From Chloroflexota bacterium (GTDB taxonomy: Bacteria; Chloroflexota; Dormibacteria; Dormibacterales; Dormibacteraceae), in the NCBI GenBank assembly GCA_005880795.1, contig VBGP01000017.1:1-64000 (forward strand): 64,000 nucleotides of DNA, read 5' to 3'. Below the pieces are notes generated by a model, which worked only from the letters and a program-made list of their open reading frames with translations, made no database searches and was not told the origin of the DNA. A program made the position numbers and the translations under genes. Positions within the stretch are counted from its first letter, which is position 1, and each line of letters starts with the position of its first letter. Shown here piece after piece: positions 7,110-53,395 of the stretch.

Positions 7110-7112
7110 CTT

Positions 7113-7150
7113 CCCCTCTCCCCCCAGGGGAGAGGGTCAGGGAGAGGGGC
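7113..7150. repeat. REP-like inverted repeat, short relative of family B
   Basis: CCCCTCTCC and GGGGAGAGGG face each other, followed by a second half-unit CAGGGAGAGGGG, in the 48-bp gap between pgl and rpe. The terminal motifs match the 83-bp elements at 53.3 and 62.3 kb, but the internal sequence is missing. Its purine-rich edge lies just upstream of the rpe ATG and could act as a weak ribosome-binding site. Confidence 0.6.
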
Positions 7151-7157
7151 GTGGACG

Positions 7158-7805
7158 ATGAAAGTTGAAATAGTCCCCTCAATCCTTTCGGCCGACGTCG
7201 GCCGTCTCACCGAGCAGGTCAAAGAGGCCGAGGCCGCGGGCGCCGACCGGATCCAGGTTGACGTCATGGACGGCCACTTCGTGCCCAACCTCACGTTCGG
7301 TCCGCTTGTCGTCCAGGCGGTTCGCAAAGCGACATCGCTCCCGATCGAAGCCCACCTGATGGTCCTGCGACCCGAGCTGTTCCTCGAGGCGTTCGCAAAG
7401 GCAGGAGCAACGCTGATCGAGATACAGGTGGAGGCGACCAGTTCTCTGTACCGGACGGTGCAGACGATAAATGAGCTGGGCGCGAAGGCAGGCGTGGCCA
7501 TCAATCCCGCGACGCCGGTCGAAGACCTGCGCGAGATCCTGCCGTACATCGACCTGGTCAACGTGATGACGGTCGAGCCTGGATTCGGCGGTCAGAAATT
7601 CATCCCCCACAGCCCGGACAAGATCCGCCGGCTGCGCGCGATGTCAGCGGATATCGAGATCGAGGTCGACGGAGGCATCGACGCGCGGACAGCGCCGCTG
7701 GTCGTCGCGGCAGGGGCCTCGGTGCTGGTCGCGGGCAACTCCGTCTACGGGTACAAAGGCGGGATCGCCGCCGGCATCCGGGCCATTCGCGACGCTGTTG
7801 ACTGA
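7158..7805 (+). CDS. rpe: Ribulose-phosphate 3-epimerase
   Basis: It interconverts ribulose-5-phosphate and xylulose-5-phosphate. The 215-residue TIM barrel begins MKVEIVPSILSADVGRL and carries QVDVMDGHFVPNLTFG, the EAHLMV segment, VMTVEPGFGGQKFI and EVDGGIDARTAPLVVAAGA, all conserved metal- and phosphate-binding segments. The stop overlaps the rpiA TTG start by 8 bp, consistent with one transcript for pgl-rpe-rpiA. Confidence 0.96.
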   Translation: MKVEIVPSILSADVGRLTEQVKEAEAAGADRIQVDVMDGHFVPNLTFGPLVVQAVRKATSLPIEAHLMVLRPELFLEAFAKAGATLIEIQVEATSSLYRTVQTINELGAKAGVAINPATPVEDLREILPYIDLVNVMTVEPGFGGQKFIPHSPDKIRRLRAMSADIEIEVDGGIDARTAPLVVAAGASVLVAGNSVYGYKGGIAAGIRAIRDAVD

Positions 7806-8523: not shown

Positions 8524-8594
8524 TCGCTCCGCCGGCTGACCACATCGGCCCAGCCCCTCCGGCGCTGCGCGCCACCTCCCCATGCATGGGGAGG
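8478..8594. repeat. REP-like element, family C, overlapping rpiA 3' end
   Basis: A compound hairpin-rich segment contains CCCGGCGAAGCCGGG inside the rpiA tail (8490-8504) and ends with CCTCCCC-ATGCAT-GGGGAGG (8575-8594). The CCTCCCC/GGGGAGG module recurs at 24.1, 32.1 and 34.6 kb. It separates rpiA from the tRNA gene. Confidence 0.55.
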
Positions 8595-14218: not shown

Positions 14219-16245
14219 CAGGTACTCCCGCCAACCAGCAGCGGCGCCGAGGCCGCGACCGCCGGCGACGATGCGACCGCGACGACCGCACCCGACTTCA
14301 CGCCGCTGGGAATGCTCACCGGCCAGTGGTCGGTCGGGATCTCGACGATGTAGCCGGTCGAGGGCGTCGTCGCGCTCGGGCCCGGCAGGTCGGTCGTCTG
14401 CCCCGTGCAGCGGTCGAAGAATTTGATCGTGTAAGCGACGTTGACCGACTTTTGAACCGCGGTGAAGTACACCGCGACCTCGAGCCTGCACGAGTTCACC
14501 TCGCAAGCTGTTGCCGTTTCAGCTGAGGATCCGGGGATGTCGCAGGGCGAGGCGACCGTGCAGATCTGCACCTTGCTGATCGGCGCCGCGCTCGCCGCCC
14601 CAAAGCTCGGCACGGCCTGGGGGCCGCCGGTCGCGGTGGGGCTCGGCGTCGCGTGAGGCGAGGTCGTCGCGTGAGGCGAGGTCGTCGCATGCGGCGAGGG
14701 CGTGGCGTGGACCTGGCCTACCACCGTCGGACTGCTCCGGTGCGACAGCACGTACACCCCGACGATCCCGAGCAGGAGGACGATGACGACCGCGACCGCC
14801 GCCGGGACGAGCCACGGCGGGCGCTCAGCAAGCAGGCCGCCACCTGAGGGCGGACGTGGGACGCCCGGCCGGCGGACCGGCGCCGGCGCCGCTGCTGCGG
14901 CCGCGGGGCGCCAGGGCGGCGGAGCCGGCGCGACAGGCACAGGTGCGGCCGGTGGGGCCACCTCGGCGACGGCCGCGCCGGCGCCCAGCGGTTCGGCGGG
15001 CACGGTCTCTCCAGGCTTCCAGACCGGCGAGTCGACCGGGGTCCAGGTGGACTGCCTTGGGGGCTCCACGGGAGCGGCCGGCTCGGCCGGAGCGGACGCG
15101 GCGGGCGGGGAGGTGGCGAAGCTCGGGGCGGGAGCCACCGGGGCGGGTGGAGGAGGCTCGAACATCGGAGCTTGCTTGACCGGCTCGGGCTGCCAGCGCG
15201 GGGTCTCGACCGGGGCCGGCGCCGGAGGGTTGGTTGCGGCTGCGGGCGGCGGGTCGTCCCAGGTTGGCACGGGCGGCGTGCTGGGCACCGGTGCCGCCGG
15301 GGCTGGCGCCGAGACCGCGGGCGCGGGCGGGAAGGTGATGGCCGGCATGGCTGGATACGTCTGCAGCGGCCGGTCCGGCGCGTCGTACGAGACGGGCGCG
15401 CGCGCCGGGGTCTCTTCCCGGCGGGGCGGCGCGATGTAGGGCGCGGGGGCGGGCACCGCTGCAACGGGCTGGCGTGGGGTCGGGGGGACCGTGCCGGCCG
15501 GGAGGAACGGCGTGATCGCCGGAATCTCGCGGCCGCCCGCGCGAGTGGCGAGCTCTGATTGGGCGGCCATCTCGCGGTCCGGGGAGAGGAGGGCGGCCGC
15601 CATCTCGCGCAGGGCTCCCTGCGCGCGGTCGGCGGACGGACCCATCGCGCCGCTGGCCATGGAGCGCATGGTCACGACCAGGCCGGGCGGGATGTTGGCG
15701 GGAGCGGGCGCGCCCGCGGGGTCGACTCCAAACGCGGCGCAGACGGCCATGCCGCTCGAGCGCACGTCGGCGCGAAGGTCGCTCTGAGACGGCGCTCCGC
15801 GCACGGCCGCGGCGGGGTGACCGGCCAGGCGGACCTCGCCGTTCGAGGTCACGCGGACGGCGGTCGCGCCGAAGCCTCCCATGGCGATGCCGGCCTCGTG
15901 GAGCGCAGCCACACCCGAGAGCACGGCCGCGCCGAGATGGGCGGCGGCCGGAGGGGTAAGCGGTCCCCGAGACAGGATCGAACCCAGGGGAGTGCCCTCG
16001 TTGGGCTCGACGGCGATCCAGACCCCGTTGGGGTCGGTGCCCCAGGCCAGGACGGGCGAGAGGGCGGGGTGGCGGTGGTCGAAGAGGCGCTGGAGACGCG
16101 GCACGGCAGCCGTCGCCTCGGCCGGCGGAATGGGGATTTCGTGCACGACGGCGGGCTTTCCGGACTTCAGGACGGCCTTCCAGCCCTGGCCCCCGCCAGG
16201 TGCAACGAGTTCGATCAGCTTGGGCTTCGGCTCAGATTCGGGCAT
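14215..16245 (-). CDS. Transmembrane pseudokinase-like protein with long Pro/Ala-rich linker
   Basis: The 676-residue protein starts with about 215 residues of protein-kinase-like fold (GGGQGWKAVLKSG, HPALSPVLAWG, AAVLSGVAALHEAGIAMGG). The catalytic HRD and DFG motifs are absent: GIAMGGFGATAVRV and RLAGHP occupy those places. It is thus probably a pseudokinase. A Pro/Ala-rich linker covers about 240-480, one membrane helix lies near 485-510, and an outside segment with SPHATT repeats leads to a C-terminal domain with several cysteines (CTVASPC, ACEVNSC). The layout mimics PASTA/Stk-type sensors without the known ligand domains. A role as cell-surface sensor or scaffold is inferred. Confidence 0.7.
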   Translation of the reverse strand: MPESEPKPKLIELVAPGGGQGWKAVLKSGKPAVVHEIPIPPAEATAAVPRLQRLFDHRHPALSPVLAWGTDPNGVWIAVEPNEGTPLGSILSRGPLTPPAAAHLGAAVLSGVAALHEAGIAMGGFGATAVRVTSNGEVRLAGHPAAAVRGAPSQSDLRADVRSSGMAVCAAFGVDPAGAPAPANIPPGLVVTMRSMASGAMGPSADRAQGALREMAAALLSPDREMAAQSELATRAGGREIPAITPFLPAGTVPPTPRQPVAAVPAPAPYIAPPRREETPARAPVSYDAPDRPLQTYPAMPAITFPPAPAVSAPAPAAPVPSTPPVPTWDDPPPAAATNPPAPAPVETPRWQPEPVKQAPMFEPPPPAPVAPAPSFATSPPAASAPAEPAAPVEPPRQSTWTPVDSPVWKPGETVPAEPLGAGAAVAEVAPPAAPVPVAPAPPPWRPAAAAAAPAPVRRPGVPRPPSGGGLLAERPPWLVPAAVAVVIVLLLGIVGVYVLSHRSSPTVVGQVHATPSPHATTSPHATTSPHATPSPTATGGPQAVPSFGAASAAPISKVQICTVASPCDIPGSSAETATACEVNSCRLEVAVYFTAVQKSVNVAYTIKFFDRCTGQTTDLPGPSATTPSTGYIVEIPTDHWPVSIPSGVKSGAVVAVASSPAVAASAPLLVGGSTC
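14651..14704. repeat. 18-bp tandem repeat, three units
   Basis: Two identical units GCGTGAGGCGAGGTCGTC and a diverged third lie head to tail within the pseudokinase gene. They encode three SPHAT(T/P) units in the extracellular spacer, so unit number could vary between strains without a frameshift. Confidence 0.85.
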
Positions 16246-23068: not shown

Positions 23069-23132
23069 GTGCCCGGACGCGGGCTCCGCCACCACTTCCC
23101 CATGAATGGCTCTGTTCCTATTCTTTCTAGCG

Positions 23133-24053
23133 ATGGCACGTGGCGTTGGCGTTCCTGGGATCACCCGGCTTGTCGGCAACACGCCGCTGCTTCGGGTTCG
23201 GCTGTTCGATCGCGAGTTTCCGCAGGTCGAGGTTTACGCCAAGGCCGAATGGTTCAACCCCGGCGGCTCGGTCAAGGACCGCGCGGCGCTGTCGATGATC
23301 GAGGACGGCGAGCGGCGAAAAGCGCTGACCCGCGACAGGACCATCATCGATTCGACCTCAGGCAACACCGGCATCGCCTACGCGCTGATCGGTTCGGCTA
23401 AGGGCTACCGCGTGAGGCTCGTGATGCCCGGCAACGTGAGCGCCGAGCGCAAGGCTCTCGTGACCGCTTACGGCGCGGAGATCGTGTACAGCGACGCGGG
23501 CGAAGGTTCCGACGGCGCCATCCGGATGGTGCGCGACATCGTGGCCGCGAACCCCGACGAATACTTCTACCCCGACCAGTACTCGAATCCCGCGAATCCC
23601 CGCGCGCATTACGAGGGCACCGCGGTGGAGATCCTGGAGCAGACGAACGGCCGCATCACACACTTTGTGGCCGGGCTCGGTACCACCGGAACGTTCGTTG
23701 GCACATCGCGGCGGCTGAAGGAGCACGACGCATCCATCAGGACAATTGCCGTTGAGCCGGAGGATTCGTTCCACGGCCTCGAAGGGCTCAAGCACCTGCC
23801 CACGGCGATCGTGCCGAAGATCTGGGACGAATCGCTCGCCGACGAGGTCTGGGGTTGCCCGACCGAGCCGGCCTATGACCTCGCGCGCGCGGTGGCGGGC
23901 ACGGAGGGCTTGCTCGTCGGACATTCCAGCGGCGCCGCGCTGTGGGCGGTGCGCAAGCTGGCGGAGACGATTCGCGAGGGCGTGGTCGTGACGGTGTTTC
24001 CCGACTCGGGGGACCGGTACCTATCCACTGGGCTTTACGGTGGAAGGAGATGA
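23133..24053 (+). CDS. Cysteine synthase (PLP-dependent, CysM/CysK family)
   Basis: The 306-residue beta-family PLP enzyme has ITRLVGNTPLLRV, the PLP lysine in NPGGSVKDRAALSMI, the substrate loop STSGNTGIAYALIG, FVAGLGTTGTFVGTSRRL and VGHSSGAALWAV. It makes cysteine from an activated serine and a sulfur donor. ATG 23133 is preferred over 23106: TATTCT (23119-23124) ends 8 bp upstream, suggesting a leaderless mRNA. The adjacent JAMM protease gene recalls the mycobacterial mec-cysO-cysM cluster, so the donor could be a thiocarboxylated carrier protein. Confidence 0.9.
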   Translation: MARGVGVPGITRLVGNTPLLRVRLFDREFPQVEVYAKAEWFNPGGSVKDRAALSMIEDGERRKALTRDRTIIDSTSGNTGIAYALIGSAKGYRVRLVMPGNVSAERKALVTAYGAEIVYSDAGEGSDGAIRMVRDIVAANPDEYFYPDQYSNPANPRAHYEGTAVEILEQTNGRITHFVAGLGTTGTFVGTSRRLKEHDASIRTIAVEPEDSFHGLEGLKHLPTAIVPKIWDESLADEVWGCPTEPAYDLARAVAGTEGLLVGHSSGAALWAVRKLAETIREGVVVTVFPDSGDRYLSTGLYGGRR

Positions 24054-24057
24054 ACGG

Positions 24058-24132
24058 ATCCCCCCATCCGGCCCGGCCGCAATGCGGCGGGGCCACCTTC
24101 CCCAGCGAGTGGGGAAGGGGAGCGGGGAGGTG
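24058..24132. repeat. REP-like element, family C, supplying the next ribosome-binding site
   Basis: The element contains CGGCCGCAATGCGGCGGG and CCTTCCCC-AGCGAGT-GGGGAAGG hairpins and ends in GGGGAGGTG. The terminal GGGGAGG would serve as the Shine-Dalgarno and the final GTG (24130) as start codon of the JAMM gene. It fills the whole gap after the cysteine synthase gene. Confidence 0.65.
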
Positions 24133-24540
24133 AAAATCAATCGCATCTCGATGGAGGCCATTCGGGCGCATGGGGCTGAGGGGTATCCGCATGAGATCTG
24201 CGGCATCATGGTCGGGCCTCGCGGGGACCGCACCGTGACCGAGGTGAAACGCGCGCGAAACATCGTGGTCGATCGTGCCCGCGACCGCTACGAGATCGAT
24301 CCTCGGGACCACATCCGGATCCAGCGCGAGGCCGACGCCGCGGGCCTCGATATTGTCGGCTACTACCACAGCCATCCCGACCACCCGGCGCAGGCGTCGC
24401 GATTCGACACCGAGCGCGCGTGGGCGGGCTACGTCTACCTGATCGTGGCCGTTCATGAGGGGAAGGCGGTGGACGCGAACGCGTTCGTCGCGGACAGCGA
24501 TGGGGGACCTTTTCAAACTGAGCCGCTGGAGCTGATCTGA
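24130..24540 (+). CDS. JAMM/MPN+ zinc metalloprotease (Mec-like)
   Basis: The 136-residue JAMM domain has the upstream glutamate in PHEICGIMVG and the zinc motif YYHSHPDHPAQASRFD (H-x-H-x7-S-x2-D). In mycobacteria such a protease (Mec) releases cysteine from CysO-cysteine made by CysM; the gene next door encodes a cysteine synthase, so the same role is plausible. No ThiS/MoaD-like CysO gene is visible in the window. GTG 24130 comes from the preceding repeat. The stop overlaps CTG 24537 of the transporter. Confidence 0.87.
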   Translation: MKINRISMEAIRAHGAEGYPHEICGIMVGPRGDRTVTEVKRARNIVVDRARDRYEIDPRDHIRIQREADAAGLDIVGYYHSHPDHPAQASRFDTERAWAGYVYLIVAVHEGKAVDANAFVADSDGGPFQTEPLELI

Positions 24541-32490: not shown

Positions 32491-33518
32491 CAGCTCAACC
32501 CGGGTTTCCTGCCGAGAGTGACGCGGACCAGGCGCTTGATGTCCTCGCTCGTGGGGATCGAGGTCTTCTCGAGCTGCTGGTTGTATGGCATCGGCACCTG
32601 CGCGCCTCCGAGCCGGCGGATCGGGGCGTCGAGGTAATCGAAGCACCGCTCCTGCACGCCGGCCGCGAGCTCGGCGGTCACGCCGTACGTCGACCAGCCT
32701 TCCTCCACGACGACGCACCGGCTCGTCTTGCGCACCGACTCGACGATGGGATCCCAGTCGATGGGCCGGATCGAGCGCAGGTCGACGACCTCGGCGTCGA
32801 TGTCCTCTTCCTCGAGCTGCTTGGCGGCCTCGTTGGCGAGCACGGCCATCCTCGACACGCCGACGATGGTGACGTCAGAACCCGTGCGGCGAAGGGCCGC
32901 CTTGCCCAACGGCGTCGTGTAATCGCCGGCGGGAACCTCGCCCTTGACGTTGTAGAGGCTCATCGATTCGAGAAACATCACCGGGTTGTCGGCGCGGATC
33001 GCGGACTTGAGCATGCCCTTCGCATCCGCGGGCGTCGTCGGCGCGACGACCAGCAGGCCGGGGATCAGTCCGTACAGAACTTCAAAGCTGTGCGAGTGCT
33101 GGGCGGAGAGCTGATGTCCCGCACCGCCTGGCATCCGGATCACCATCGGCACCTTGACCTCGCCGCCGAACATATAGCGGATCTTGGCCGCGTTGTTGAC
33201 GATCTGGTCGTAGGCGATCAGCGAGAAGTTGATGGTCATCAGCTCGACCACCGGGCGCAGGCCGAGCATGGCCGCGCCGATGGCCGTGCCCACGATCGCC
33301 TCTTCGGCAATCGGCGCATCGACCACGCGCTGCGGGCCGAACCTGTCGAGGAGTCCCTCGGTGACGCGATACGCGCCGCCGAATATCCCTATGTCCTCGC
33401 CGATCAGGAAGATCGAGTCGTCGCGCTCCATCTCCTCGGCCAGCGCCTCGCGAAGAGCGACCCGGTAGAGCTTTTCGTCAGAGGCGGCCGGCGCCTTGGC
33501 CGGCGTTGCGGTCGCCAT
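32490..33518 (-). CDS. pdhB: Pyruvate dehydrogenase complex E1, beta subunit
   Basis: The 342-residue transketolase-like pyrimidine-binding subunit has GEDIGIFGGAYRVTEGLLDRFG, DAPIAEEAIVGTAIGAAMLGLRPVVE, MPGGAGHQLSAQHSHSFE, VVDLRSIRPIDWDPIVESV and VEEGWSTYGV. It pairs with the alpha subunit encoded directly upstream. ATG 33518 overlaps the alpha stop by one base (TGATG), and its own stop overlaps the E2 ATG in the same way. Confidence 0.96.
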   Translation of the reverse strand: MATATPAKAPAASDEKLYRVALREALAEEMERDDSIFLIGEDIGIFGGAYRVTEGLLDRFGPQRVVDAPIAEEAIVGTAIGAAMLGLRPVVELMTINFSLIAYDQIVNNAAKIRYMFGGEVKVPMVIRMPGGAGHQLSAQHSHSFEVLYGLIPGLLVVAPTTPADAKGMLKSAIRADNPVMFLESMSLYNVKGEVPAGDYTTPLGKAALRRTGSDVTIVGVSRMAVLANEAAKQLEEEDIDAEVVDLRSIRPIDWDPIVESVRKTSRCVVVEEGWSTYGVTAELAAGVQERCFDYLDAPIRRLGGAQVPMPYNQQLEKTSIPTSEDIKRLVRVTLGRKPGLS

Positions 33519-34603
33519 CACACCCTCTCCGCGCGAAGCTCGGGCCGGTTGTCCCACTGGCCGGCGTAGGTGTACTTGTAGAGGTCGTCCGGGTTGGGAT
33601 CCGGGCTCTGGTCCGCAAACTCGATGATGTCGCGGACCTCGGCGTCGACCTCCTGCCGCACCTTCTTGAAGTGCTCCTCGTCCGCCAGGCCGCTCTTCTC
33701 CAGCTCGTGCTCGAAGGCGACGATGGGGTCCGCCTTGCGCCACTTCTCCTTGTCCTCGGCCGAGCGGTATTTGTCCGGGTCGACCACCGAGTGGCCTCGG
33801 AATCGGTAGCAGAGCGACTCGATGAAGCGGGGGACCGAATCCTTGCGCGTCTTCTCGACGATCTCGCTCGTCTGCAGCATGACCTCGCGCAGGTTCATGC
33901 CGTCGATCTGGATCGACTCCATGTCGTAAGCGCACGCCTTCTTGTAGATGTCGGCGACGGCCGACGCCTTCTCGACCGGAGTGCCCATGCCGTAACGGTT
34001 GTTGACGCAGAACCAGACCACGGGAAGGTCGAAGACCTTGGCCATGTTCAGCGACTCGTGGAACGCGCCGATGTTGGTGGCGCCATCGCCGAACATGCAG
34101 AAGATCACGTCGGGCTGCTTGCGATATTTCACCGCCCACGCGCCGCCGACAGCCAGCGGCAGGTGACCTCCGACGATTCCGTAGCCGCCCATGAACCGGC
34201 GGCTGTAGTCGACGAGGTGCATCGACCCGCCGCGGCCGTGTGAGGTTCCAGTCTCTTTGCCGAAGAGCTCGGCCATGACTGCTTTCGGGTCGATACCGCG
34301 AGCGATCGCGTGGCCGTGCTCCCGGTAGCTGGTGAAGATCCAGTCATTCGGCTTGAGCGCGAGGATGCCCCCGACGACCGTCGCCTCCTCGCCGATGTTG
34401 AGGTGGCAGTAGCCTCCGATCTTCGCCTTGGTGTACTGCTCCTGCGCGCGCTCTTCGAAACGGCGGATCAGCTGCATCTGCCGGTGCAGGCCGAGCAGGA
34501 AATCGCGATTGCCCTTGTTCAGCTCGAGCGATTTCGGGTTGATCGCGCTCGGCGTGGGGGGTGGGGCAGAGGGCTTGACGGGGGCGACCATTTGTTTCTC
34601 CAT
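33518..34603 (-). CDS. pdhA: Pyruvate dehydrogenase complex E1, alpha subunit
   Basis: The 361-residue thiamine-diphosphate enzyme has YCHLNIGEEATVVGGI, the ThDP motif GDGATNIGAFHESLNM ending VWFCVNN, and the phospho-loop-like RFRGHSVVDPDKYRS. ATG 34603 follows a strong GGGGAGGTGAAA ribosome-binding site provided by a REP-like element. The same frame is open upstream through the entire E3 gene without a stop, so an E3-E1-alpha fusion protein could also be made. The Pro-rich stretch after the start is probably a flexible tail. Confidence 0.93.
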   Translation of the reverse strand: MEKQMVAPVKPSAPPPTPSAINPKSLELNKGNRDFLLGLHRQMQLIRRFEERAQEQYTKAKIGGYCHLNIGEEATVVGGILALKPNDWIFTSYREHGHAIARGIDPKAVMAELFGKETGTSHGRGGSMHLVDYSRRFMGGYGIVGGHLPLAVGGAWAVKYRKQPDVIFCMFGDGATNIGAFHESLNMAKVFDLPVVWFCVNNRYGMGTPVEKASAVADIYKKACAYDMESIQIDGMNLREVMLQTSEIVEKTRKDSVPRFIESLCYRFRGHSVVDPDKYRSAEDKEKWRKADPIVAFEHELEKSGLADEEHFKKVRQEVDAEVRDIIEFADQSPDPNPDDLYKYTYAGQWDNRPELRAERV

Positions 34604-36052
34604 TTTCACCTCCCCACTTGCTGGGGAGGTCAGGCCGCTCACGGCCTGGGTGGGGGGATTGGAGCTTGTTTTGCGATTCGGGATGTGGATCGCGCGACCT
34701 TGCGCCGCCAGCGCTGACTCCATCAGCGACTCGGGCAGCGTCGGATGGGCGTGGATCGTGAGGTCGATCTGCTCCAGCGTCAGCCCGTTCTGCACCGCCA
34801 GGGTCGCCTCGGCGATGAGGTCGGTCGCGCGCGGCCCGATGATGTGCGCGCCCAGCAGCCGGCCCGACTCCGCGTCGGCGACGACCTTGACGAACCCTTC
34901 GGTCTGGCCGAGCGTCAGGGCGCGACCCGCCGCGGCGAACGGAAACTTCCCGATTTTCACCGCGATGCCTTTTTCCTTCGCCTCTTTCTCGCCGAGTCCC
35001 ACGTGCGCGATCTCCGGGTCGGTGTAGATGCAGTTGGGCGCGGCGTGGTAATCGGGGACACGATTTCCGTGCCCGGCGATGTTCTCCACCGCGCACACCC
35101 CTTCGTACGACGCGACGTGCGCGAGCATGATGCCGCCGATCACGTCACCGATCGCCCACACGCCGTCCGCGGTCGTATGCAGGTGCTCGTCGACGACGAC
35201 GCGTCCGCGGTCGAGCTTGACGCCGGCTTTTTCCGCGTCGAGACCTTGCGTGTAGGGCACGCGCCCGACCGCGAGCAGCACCTGGTCGGCATCCACAGCG
35301 CCACCCTCGGCGCCGGTCGAGAAGCGCACCTGCAGCGCGCCGTTTTGTTTGACGACCTCGGAGACCTTGCTGTCGGTGTGGATCTCGCCGCCGAGTCCAG
35401 TCAGGTGCTTGGTGTAAACCGCGACCAGGTCGGCGTCGACCATCGCCAGCACCTGCGGCAGCATCTCGAGCACCGTGACCTTGCTGCCCAGCGCGGCGAA
35501 CATGGCCGCGAACTCCATCCCGACGACGCCACCGCCGATGACGGCGAGGCGGCGGGGGATCTCCTTCAGCTCGAGGATCTGGTCGGAGTCGATCGCAAGC
35601 TCGGCGCCGGCCAGCGGGATGCGGGCCACCGCGGACCCGGTGGCGATCACGATGTCCTTCGCCTGAAGCTGGTCGCCGCTCACGTCGACCAGGCCCTTCC
35701 CGGCAAGGCGGGCGCCGCCCTTGAACGCGGTCACGCCGCCCGCCTTGAGCAGCCCGTCGACACCCTTGACGAGCTGGTCGACGACCGAGGTCTTGCGCTT
35801 CTGGGCGGCGGTCCAGTCGAAGGCGAGATGGTCCGCGACGACGCCGAACGCCGCGCCCTCTCGGGCCTGCGTGTAGAGCTCGGAAGACTGGAGCAGCGCC
35901 TTGGTCGGGATGCAGCCCCGGACCAGGCAGGTGCCGCCCATGCGGTCTTTCTCCACGATGGCCGTCTTGGCCCCAAGCTGAGCCGCCCGAAGCGCGGCGA
36001 CGTAGCCACCCGGCCCGCCGCCGATCACCAGAACGTCAAACGCCCCAGCCAT
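34604..36052 (-). CDS. lpd: Dihydrolipoyl dehydrogenase (E3), open into pdhA
   Basis: This FAD-dependent E3 re-oxidises the lipoyl groups of E2. It has the FAD motif VIGGGPGGYVAALRAAQLG, the redox pair in GGTCLVRGCIPTK, the NAD motif VIGGGVVGMEFA, FAD segment VWAIGDVIGG, and the C-terminal HAHPTLPESLMESAL with the catalytic His. Homology ends near AIHIPNRK, but no stop follows: the frame runs through a REP-like element into pdhA. The span given ends at the pdhA ATG (483 codons). ATG 36052 has an AGGAG just upstream. Confidence 0.92.
34605..34663. repeat. REP-like element, family C, at the lpd-pdhA junction
   Basis: CACCTCCCC-ACTTGCT-GGGGAGG and AGGCCGCTCACGGCCT hairpins lie exactly between the E3 and E1-alpha coding regions. 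Read on the minus strand it encodes QAVSGLTSPASGEVK in frame with both and offers the Shine-Dalgarno of pdhA. The lpd stop codon is absent. Confidence 0.75.
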
Positions 36053-52031: not shown

Positions 52032-53395
52032 GCGACTAGCAATCCTGTGAGATGGCCGGCGGTGGCCTGTAGGACACGAATACTCACCACGTCACCGGGA
52101 GCGATCGCGCCGGCCCGCAGGACGTTGGCCCGCTTGCCCTGGCGGATGCGCCCGTAGGGGCGGTTCAGCTCATCCCGGCCCTCGATCAACACCTCGGCAT
52201 CGCGGCCGATCCACCTCGCGGTCTTGCGCGCCGCGATGTCGCGCTGCAGCACCAGGAGGTCGTTGAGGCGGCGCAGCTTCTCCGCCTGCGGCACGTCATC
52301 GGCCATTCGAGTCGCCGCGTAGGTCCCGGGCCTCGGCGAGTACATCGCGATATGAACGACGTCGAACTGCATCTCCTCGACCAGCGCGCGGGTGTTGAGG
52401 TAGGCGGCTTCGGACTCACCCGGAAATCCCACGATGACATCGGTCACGAGCCCGATGTCGGGCATCAACCGCCTGGCGTTGTCCACGATCTCCCTGTAGT
52501 GGCGTGTCTGGTAGCCCCGAGCCATCCGCTTCAACACCGTGTCGTCGCCCGACTGGATCGGCAGCTGCAGCTCGCGACACACCACGTCGCTTGCCGCCAT
52601 GACTTCGAGCAGCTCCGTCTCGAGGTCCTGCGGATGTGAGGTCATGAAACGGAGTCGCTTCAGGCCAGGAATCTGTTCCACCTCGTGGACGAGAGCGGCG
52701 AGGCCGCCGCGACCGTCGGGGTCGTGGTAGTCGTCGACGTTCTGGCCGAGCAGCACGACCTCCTTCGCTCCGTCCGCGACAGCCTGGCGGCACTCGGCGA
52801 CGACGGCTCGCAGCGGGACGTGCTTCTCGCGACCACGAACCCGCGGCACGATGCAGAACGTGCAGTTGTGATCGCAGCCCTGGATGACGCGCACGTAGTG
52901 GCTGACGCCCGTGCGGCCCGCGTCCGGGAGAGGCTCGCCCTGCGAGTAGTCATAGCGGGCCTCGAGGTTGGCTACGAAGTCCTCGTAGTCGCCGATCGGG
53001 ACGACCGCATCGAGGTGCGGGAACCGGCGAGTGAGGTCCTCGCCTTCCTTCGCCACGATGCAGCCAGTGACCGCGATCGTGCGATCCGGTGTCTTCCACT
53101 CTTTCAGCTCGTGGAGCTTGGAGTAGACCCGATCTTCGGATGCCTGCCGGACCACGCACGTGTTGAGGACCGCGACGTCAGCGCGCTCCAGCGAGTCTTC
53201 GACGTAACCCGCCGCCAGCAATCGCCGGGCGAGGCTCTCGGAATCCGCCGAGTTCATCTGGCATCCAATCGTCCAGATGTGGAACGACCTGCTTTGGACC
53301 CCCCTCTCCCCTGATCCCTGCGGGACGAGCCCGTTAACGACGCGCTGCCCGCGCCCTCTGATTGCGCCCCTGGGGGGAGAGGGTGCTCTGGCCAC
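52028..53395 (-). CDS. miaB: tRNA-2-methylthio-N6-dimethylallyladenosine synthase
   Basis: This radical-SAM methylthiotransferase has an N-terminal cluster domain with cysteines in TIGCQMN, NTCVV and TGCI, the radical-SAM CDHNCTFCIVP (CxxxCxxC), and a C-terminal TRAM domain. Conserved sequence starts only near RSFHIWTIGCQMN. The 30 or so residues before it are translated from an 83-bp repeat (53301-53383). Start choices are GTG 53395 or CTG 53414-53416, which overlaps the spoVS TGA (CTGA). There is no standard start between the repeat and the first conserved cysteine. Confidence 0.92.
   Translation of the reverse strand: MARAPSPPRGAIRGRGQRVVNGLVPQGSGERGVQSRSFHIWTIGCQMNSADSESLARRLLAAGYVEDSLERADVAVLNTCVVRQASEDRVYSKLHELKEWKTPDRTIAVTGCIVAKEGEDLTRRFPHLDAVVPIGDYEDFVANLEARYDYSQGEPLPDAGRTGVSHYVRVIQGCDHNCTFCIVPRVRGREKHVPLRAVVAECRQAVADGAKEVVLLGQNVDDYHDPDGRGGLAALVHEVEQIPGLKRLRFMTSHPQDLETELLEVMAASDVVCRELQLPIQSGDDTVLKRMARGYQTRHYREIVDNARRLMPDIGLVTDVIVGFPGESEAAYLNTRALVEEMQFDVVHIAMYSPRPGTYAATRMADDVPQAEKLRRLNDLLVLQRDIAARKTARWIGRDAEVLIEGRDELNRPYGRIRQGKRANVLRAGAIAPGDVVSIRVLQATAGHLTGLLVA
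53301..53383. repeat. 83-bp element, family B, inside the 5' end of miaB
   Basis: Terminal inverted repeats CCCCTCTCCC and GGGGAGAGGG enclose an internal part with CCTGCGGGAC, AGCCCGTTAA, GACGCGCT and CCCGCGCC. The element at 62320-62401 is the same with few changes. Here it lies between spoVS and the conserved start of MiaB and is read in frame. Confidence 0.82.

Follow-up and report, generated by a model that had tools for sequence, protein, structure and literature searches.

In the window, the 64,000-nucleotide stretch of Dormibacteraceae DNA analysed here, a PLP-dependent (cysK-like) gene is followed on the same strand by a JAMM-domain gene, with a palindromic element of 75 bp at their junction. 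The features of this junction are as follows.

23106..24053, forward strand: PLP-dependent (cysK-like) gene (open reading frame, PF00291)
24058..24132, forward strand: composite (long) family C element, 75 bp, recognised from repeat copies elsewhere in the genome
24070..24094, forward strand: first hairpin, GGCCC...GGGCC (RNA fold, z -4.35)
24096..24118, forward strand: second hairpin, CCTTCCCC-AGCGAGT-GGGGAAGG, the family core (pattern census and fold)
24124..24130, forward strand: Shine-Dalgarno (SD)-like GGGGAGG at the 3' end of the element, mostly paired in the predicted fold (unpaired probability 0.16)
24130..24540, forward strand: JAMM-domain gene (PF14464; ortholog junctions)

By inspection, the cysK-like stop codon (TGA, 24051-24053) overlaps an ATG at 24050 (ATGA), which is probably the relic of an old stop/start overlap. 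The element closes with GGGGAGGTG (24124-24132, forward strand), whose last triplet, the GTG at 24130-24132, is in frame with the JAMM gene and occupies the position homologous to the JAMM start codon of relatives. The initial annotation had placed a repeat edge at this start, with the GTG inside the repeat, and this is confirmed.

Structure and distribution of the repeat family

The element belongs to a REP-like palindrome family, family C, whose own 3' end is GGGGAGGTGAA. Long and short forms share the core TCCCC-RGCNAGY-GGGGA, an inverted repeat, and the short form reads CTCCCCACCC-hairpin-GACC-TCCCC(RGCRAGY)GGGGAGGTGAA. The window genome, a 3.22-Mb MAG, holds three more long-form copies (92-96% identical) together with a diverged relative (84%), and its oriented core occurs in 44 exact and 10 one-mismatch copies. 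Allowing up to two mismatches gave 71 matches vs. 13 for the control, while the bare palindrome TCCCCN7GGGGA was found in 55 places vs. 3 for the reversed control. When the 54 copies were aligned in register, GGTGAA was present in most short copies, even far from any start, and is therefore part of the element, the right end of which reads GGGGAGGTGA(A) and combines the SD-like run, an embedded GTG and a TGA. In predicted folds of short copies, CCTCCCC pairs with GGGGAGG, and fold z-scores were -3.0 to -5.0 (three copies). The 75-bp element is a real composite member of this family.

We then analyzed the distribution of the edge motifs and of the family. GGGGAGGTG occurred six times in the window (0.69 expected; none of 100 shuffles reached six) and 121 times genome-wide, vs. 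29 for the reversed control. Only two of the six window copies carry the family C core (ends at 24132, forward, and 34607, reverse); those at 8573 (reverse) and 32127 (forward) are palindromes with other loops, a flanking palindrome was looked for at 15107 (forward) and none was seen, and the copy at 5 (forward) lies at the contig edge, where flanks cannot be judged. GGGGAGAGG was found seven times in the window (1.06 expected). The exact 27-base pattern of the element end matched 66 public stretches, 63 from Chloroflexi bacterium CF_x and three from Ca. Dormiibacterota, and the long copy was matched in 15 of 17 same-genus genomes and in 20 of the 61 genomes searched, window genome included. 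As a short palindrome with many copies per genome, family C lies mostly outside genes; elsewhere it sits between genes, or in frame within protein linkers or N-termini without supplying a start.

At one locus (L118, C116:42024-42156), three family C-like copies with one core mismatch stand in tandem at 58 bp spacing, each ending in GGTGAA. Another palindromic family, built around CCGGATAGTCCGGACTATCCGG, occurs in the window at 1836, 10517, 19168, 22996, 23038 and 43107, one of the six being only 66% alike; it adjoins family C copies in L095.

State of the junction in orthologs

We searched 37 genomes for JAMM orthologs and inspected 20 from the genus and family. Eleven have an element-free junction in which the upstream stop overlaps the JAMM start as NTGA, that is GTGA, TTGA or ATGA (G016, G009, G019, G022, G017, G021, G020, G006, G008, G005 and G001). 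Four carry an element (G000, G011, G013 and G003), whose make-up differs: a long form, a short form, a short plus a long form, and another mini-hairpin. All four show the upstream TGA to the left of the element, GGGAGGTGA to its right and a GTG at the homologous start, with stop-to-GTG gaps of 34, 55, 76 and 135 nt. As for the remaining orthologs, G018 has a related palindrome in frame within the tail of the cysK-like gene and keeps GTGA, G004 and G010 have a different gene upstream, and G014 is element-free with one continuous frame by eye (493 aa open). The junction of G007, closely related to the window genome, is occupied by yet another palindrome, within which a TAA closes the upstream frame; JAMM here lacks about its first 30 codons, a loss that would remove the conserved N-terminal part. 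This case speaks against an always-benign outcome of an element at this junction and slightly lowers our confidence in the explanation preferred below. Between the element-bearing sisters G011 and G013, JAMM dN was 0.038 and dS 0.358, and dN/dS was 0.05-0.10 in four other pairs, indicating that JAMM stays under purifying selection.

Another copy, C9:13614, lies upstream of a metallo-beta-lactamase-fold (MBL) gene. Among the 15 genus genomes read at this junction (a fragment in G012 was dropped), eight have the element-free NTGA overlap and five carry an element (G000, G002, G003, G004 and G011); of the other two, G010 has a short gap without overlap and G005 another context. The upstream TGA is retained to the left of the element in 5/5, the GTG stands exactly at the homologous start in 4/5 (in G004 the start lies 14 nt past the SD), and the gaps measure 49-64 nt. 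At JAMM and MBL combined, nine junctions have an element beside an undamaged downstream gene. All nine turn the GGGAGG end towards the start, and in eight the GTG coincides exactly with the homologous start.

To follow these states across the genus, we used a tree of four proteins and 19 genomes, in which not every protein is present in every genome and 5 of 16 inner branches are strongly supported. Counted as fewest changes of state, of which individual ones may be losses, element presence requires at least three for JAMM (12 rows scored) and at least five for MBL (14 rows scored). Opposite MBL states occur in the well-supported sister pairs G002/G009 (100/100), G011/G013 (100/100) and G003/G008 (98/96). 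Because the window genome prompted the choice of junctions, only the other lineages are independent of that choice and free of selection bias. The third case is leuC/leuD (the LeuD family model TIGR02087 matches above cut-off): stop and start overlap as TTGA in L173, and L186 has an element and then GTGA. An automated empty-site search returned 126 candidates, many of which, instead of being truly empty, held a different palindrome at that place; from the matches listed, only the JAMM, MBL and leuD rows were used. The gene at the methylmalonyl-CoA epimerase junction matches TIGR03081 above cut-off.

Proximity to gene starts and orientation

Bias was tested on all 113 exact cores of five genomes (G000 44, G010 22, G011 21, G004 20, G003 6), with genes called by a codon-usage score blind to SDs and with orthologous and tandem copies counted separately, unmerged. 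Outside coding frames, 15 starts lay within 15 nt of the GGGGAGG edge and 5 within that distance of the opposite edge (p=0.041, binomial; p=0.07 in a Fisher comparison with starts at 16-60 nt). The 15 include the probably internal DUF1385 copy (see below) but not the thiolase copy (L107), which has its ATG 4 nt beyond GGGGAGG and fell under the score threshold. Starts within 9 nt numbered 11 vs. 3 (p=0.057), and a laxer window admitting starts up to 10 nt inside the edges gave 18 vs. 10 (p=0.18). Both flanks could be classified for 61 of the 113 copies, the other 52 being unclassifiable; orientation in co-directional gaps was even (27 vs. 26), with 8 convergent and 0 divergent sites. The genome-wide bias in distance or orientation anticipated with the initial annotation was thus weakly supported for close starts (15 vs. 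5, p=0.04) but not in the laxer window or for orientation. There is no general orientation bias and a weak, window-dependent excess next to starts, and the comparative evidence from orthologs is stronger than this count.

In two genomes (L097, C95:7416, and L174), it is the element's other edge that precedes, by about 10 nt, the TTG of a gene that we take to be adenylate-kinase-like.

Copies that are not gene starts

Three further places at which the initial annotation had seen a repeat edge near a gene start fared less well. They involve the following features.

33518..36052, reverse strand: fused dihydrolipoamide dehydrogenase (Lpd)/E1-alpha frame, 844 aa (open frame, both domains recognised, relatives)
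34607..34657, reverse strand: short family C copy (core 34611-34627) within the Lpd-E1alpha linker, in frame
53303..53382, reverse strand: GGGGAGAGG-edged palindromic stretch in the 5' part of a MiaB/RimO-family frame (motif search, frame inspection)
7111..7150, forward strand: a different palindrome, CCCCTCTCCC...GGGGAGAGG, between the upstream stop and rpe (motif search)

The short copy ends at 34607 on the reverse strand, 4 nt before an ATG, matching the described edge 4-5 bp before pdhA, but this ATG was rejected as a gene start since Lpd through E1-alpha form one 844 aa open frame. An open frame of 813-855 aa was present in 11/11 genus relatives with a near full-length match (12/12 with the window genome's own); G002, G010 and G012 matched in pieces and G015 by a paralog only. 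By eye, the linker contains in-frame palindromes of several kinds in 9 of the 14 genomes read, and across L384-L395 different palindromic repeats stand in frame in different species. Similarly, GGGGAGAGG is present in the 5' region of the gene annotated as miaB, but it lies inside the open frame, and no in-frame ATG, GTG or TTG was found between it and the conserved part; the gene scores above cut-off for TIGR00089, with a match from residue 70, and below the cut-offs of the MiaB equivalogs. At rpe (TIGR01163 above cut-off; ATG at 7158) the related edge does exist, but the exact GGGGAGAGG stops at 7135, which leaves 22 nt to the ATG, and only a degenerate GGGAGAGGGG is nearer; the palindrome may serve as an SD for rpe.

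The DUF1385 ATG was likewise rejected as a start: relatives share an ATG that directly follows the upstream TAG, and the element of the window genome lies downstream in that frame, so that this copy is probably internal to the gene. The gene upstream is presumably rpmE. Across L265-L280 the DUF1385 N-terminus is variable, with in-frame repeats in several genus members. Further in-frame copies were found in an MFS gene (PF07690; L098), in an ORF in L077 and in a long ORF of three species (L341/L342/L364), which carry them at comparable positions, one species in tandem; the peptide encoded downstream contains RYADR. As pdhA and DUF1385 illustrate, a repeat-borne ATG or GTG beside GGAGG is easily mistaken for a gene start.

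Translation signals at the element end

The window genome uses SDs, a 4-mer being present in the SD window of 35/121 ATG genes vs. 10/121 in a control window. SD pairing is assumed here from the general rule for bacteria. The unpaired probability of the SD 7-mer was 0.000-0.003 in 9 of 11 folded copies and 0.14-0.16 in the other two, so that folding argues for occlusion of the element's SD. Moreover, the GGGGAGG abuts the GTG without the usual spacing, and initiation is generally poor when GGGGAG and GTG directly adjoin. In-frame alternatives for the JAMM start exist upstream (GTG 24040, ATG 24082, GTG 24109) and downstream (ATG 24151). Because the SD is predicted to be paired, abuts the GTG and is accompanied by in-frame alternatives, we keep initiation efficiency apart from rearrangement: the ortholog comparison shows the rearrangement, whereas efficient initiation on the supplied signals is no more than possible, and a gain in downstream translation has no better odds than its reduction or alteration.

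Discussion

We consider it likely that a REP-like repeat of this genus came into NTGA overlaps, so that its terminal GTG now stands at the downstream start while the upstream stop was kept. A presumably mobile palindromic repeat would land in the four-nucleotide stop/start overlap of co-directional genes; the upstream gene would keep its TGA on the left, and the terminal GTG would lie in frame on the right, where the old start was. An overlapping, presumably translationally coupled pair would thereby become two genes 34 to 135 nt apart with hairpin sequence between them, and translation of the downstream gene would begin either on the element's GTG or on the next possible start. Element-free overlaps, repeated change of state, the kept upstream stop, the position of the GTG and purifying selection on JAMM can all be read from the compared sequences. 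From these we infer that the changes were insertions rather than losses and that the element's GTG is the start codon in use; the observed orientation was presumably found because both genes are saved in it. The reading that a gene start has more than once received its GTG and SD-like sequence from an inserted repeat is supported for JAMM and MBL. The broader proposal of the initial annotation, that insertion made or replaced translation signals several times, is partly supported: it stands for these two genes, whose orthologs display the element-free NTGA state, and not for pdhA or miaB.

Ordinary neutral REP insertion would explain the same junctions if palindromes fill short gaps and end at starts by chance, the signals not really being supplied and the downstream gene starting at another in-frame codon, acquiring an extended N-terminus or decaying. 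Most copies are indeed not at starts, orientation is even (27 vs. 26), in-frame coding use recurs (Lpd-E1alpha, DUF1385, the MFS gene and the L341/L342/L364 ORF), the SD is predicted to be paired, and JAMM is truncated beside the element in G007. We nevertheless regard this account as unlikely, given that the same two overlaps changed state again and again (at least three and at least five times), always with the GGGAGG end start-side and with the GTG exactly at the homologous start in 8/9. A regulatory hairpin, kept for hiding the downstream SD and start and so uncoupling the genes through translational attenuation or mRNA processing, would fit the pairing of GGGGAGG with CCTCCCC in the folds of short copies and the z-scores of -3.0 to -5.0 in three copies; its patchy presence among sister species, unlike a conserved regulator, and a stem that is merely the repeat's own palindrome make it the least probable of the readings considered.

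Alternatively, a mobilising enzyme might target or duplicate TGA or TGAA, bringing copies to NTGA overlaps with translation as a by-product. TGA stands on both sides at the nine JAMM/MBL junctions with an intact downstream gene, and TGAA does so at the thiolase and window JAMM copies. By eye, however, many copies elsewhere have the GGTGAA end but no TGA in their left flank, which indicates that the TGA is part of the element's end and leaves target duplication unsupported as a general rule at many non-junction copies; together with the failure of a PF01797 search of 17 genus genomes to find a transposase, this renders the idea rather unlikely. Returning to insertion into NTGA overlaps, we would tentatively, and with more doubt than conviction, extend it to a class of palindromic mobile repeats with a start- and stop-competent terminus (GGAGGTGA) that may colonise four-nucleotide operon overlaps, sites that as a rule do not admit insertions; coupled genes would then acquire separate starts, and operon stoichiometry would change repeatedly within one genus.

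The family resembles REP sequences of the GTAG/CGTC super-families, as far as described in the available part of PMC3733652, in being a small, many-copy palindrome found between co-directional or convergent genes and sometimes inside genes. REP termini supplying stop codons are already reported there; the family C terminus differs in giving a GTG and an SD-like run instead. No fixed offset carried a GTAG/CGTC tag in more than 3 of the 54 in-register copies, and within 6 nt of the 5' edge CGTC occurred in only 7/49 copies and GTAG in 0/49. The Y1 transposase domain (PF01797) was found in 0/17 genus genomes, whereas 5/14 control genomes matched, and a Y1 transposase encoded in the genus genomes was therefore rejected as the mobilising enzyme. 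With neither tag nor Y1 transposase in the 17 genus genomes, we did not file the family as classical REP.

Rickettsia palindromic elements, about 150 bp long and in frame in protein-coding genes according to the accessible text of PMC10969869, find a parallel in the copies in the Lpd-E1alpha linker and the DUF1385 N-terminus, but family C consists of smaller units, many of them outside genes, in an unrelated lineage. MITEAba12 has been noted to carry start codons at its termini, from which fusions could arise (PMC6382973, in part). In comparison with MITEs of this kind and enterobacterial RU elements (PMC2759123), the PF01797 search identified no parent transposon for family C and no consistent target duplication was seen, and the available portions of both papers do not describe insertion at stop/start overlaps. 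Repeats supplying start codons at such overlaps were not found described in a literature search of partial coverage that reached few subscription journals.

Overlapping genes leave scant room for insertions, yet in these uncultured soil bacteria a hairpin-forming repeat family appears to have entered such junctions repeatedly, apparently because the element end mimics both codons of the overlap. Termination-reinitiation, which couples overlapping genes (PMC6728339, available part), is by analogy the likely mechanism of the element-free NTGA state at JAMM and MBL. In contrast to overlaps of that type, the element breaks the overlap and places 34-135 nt between stop and start, and sister species with and without the insert offer a natural test of uncoupling two operon genes.
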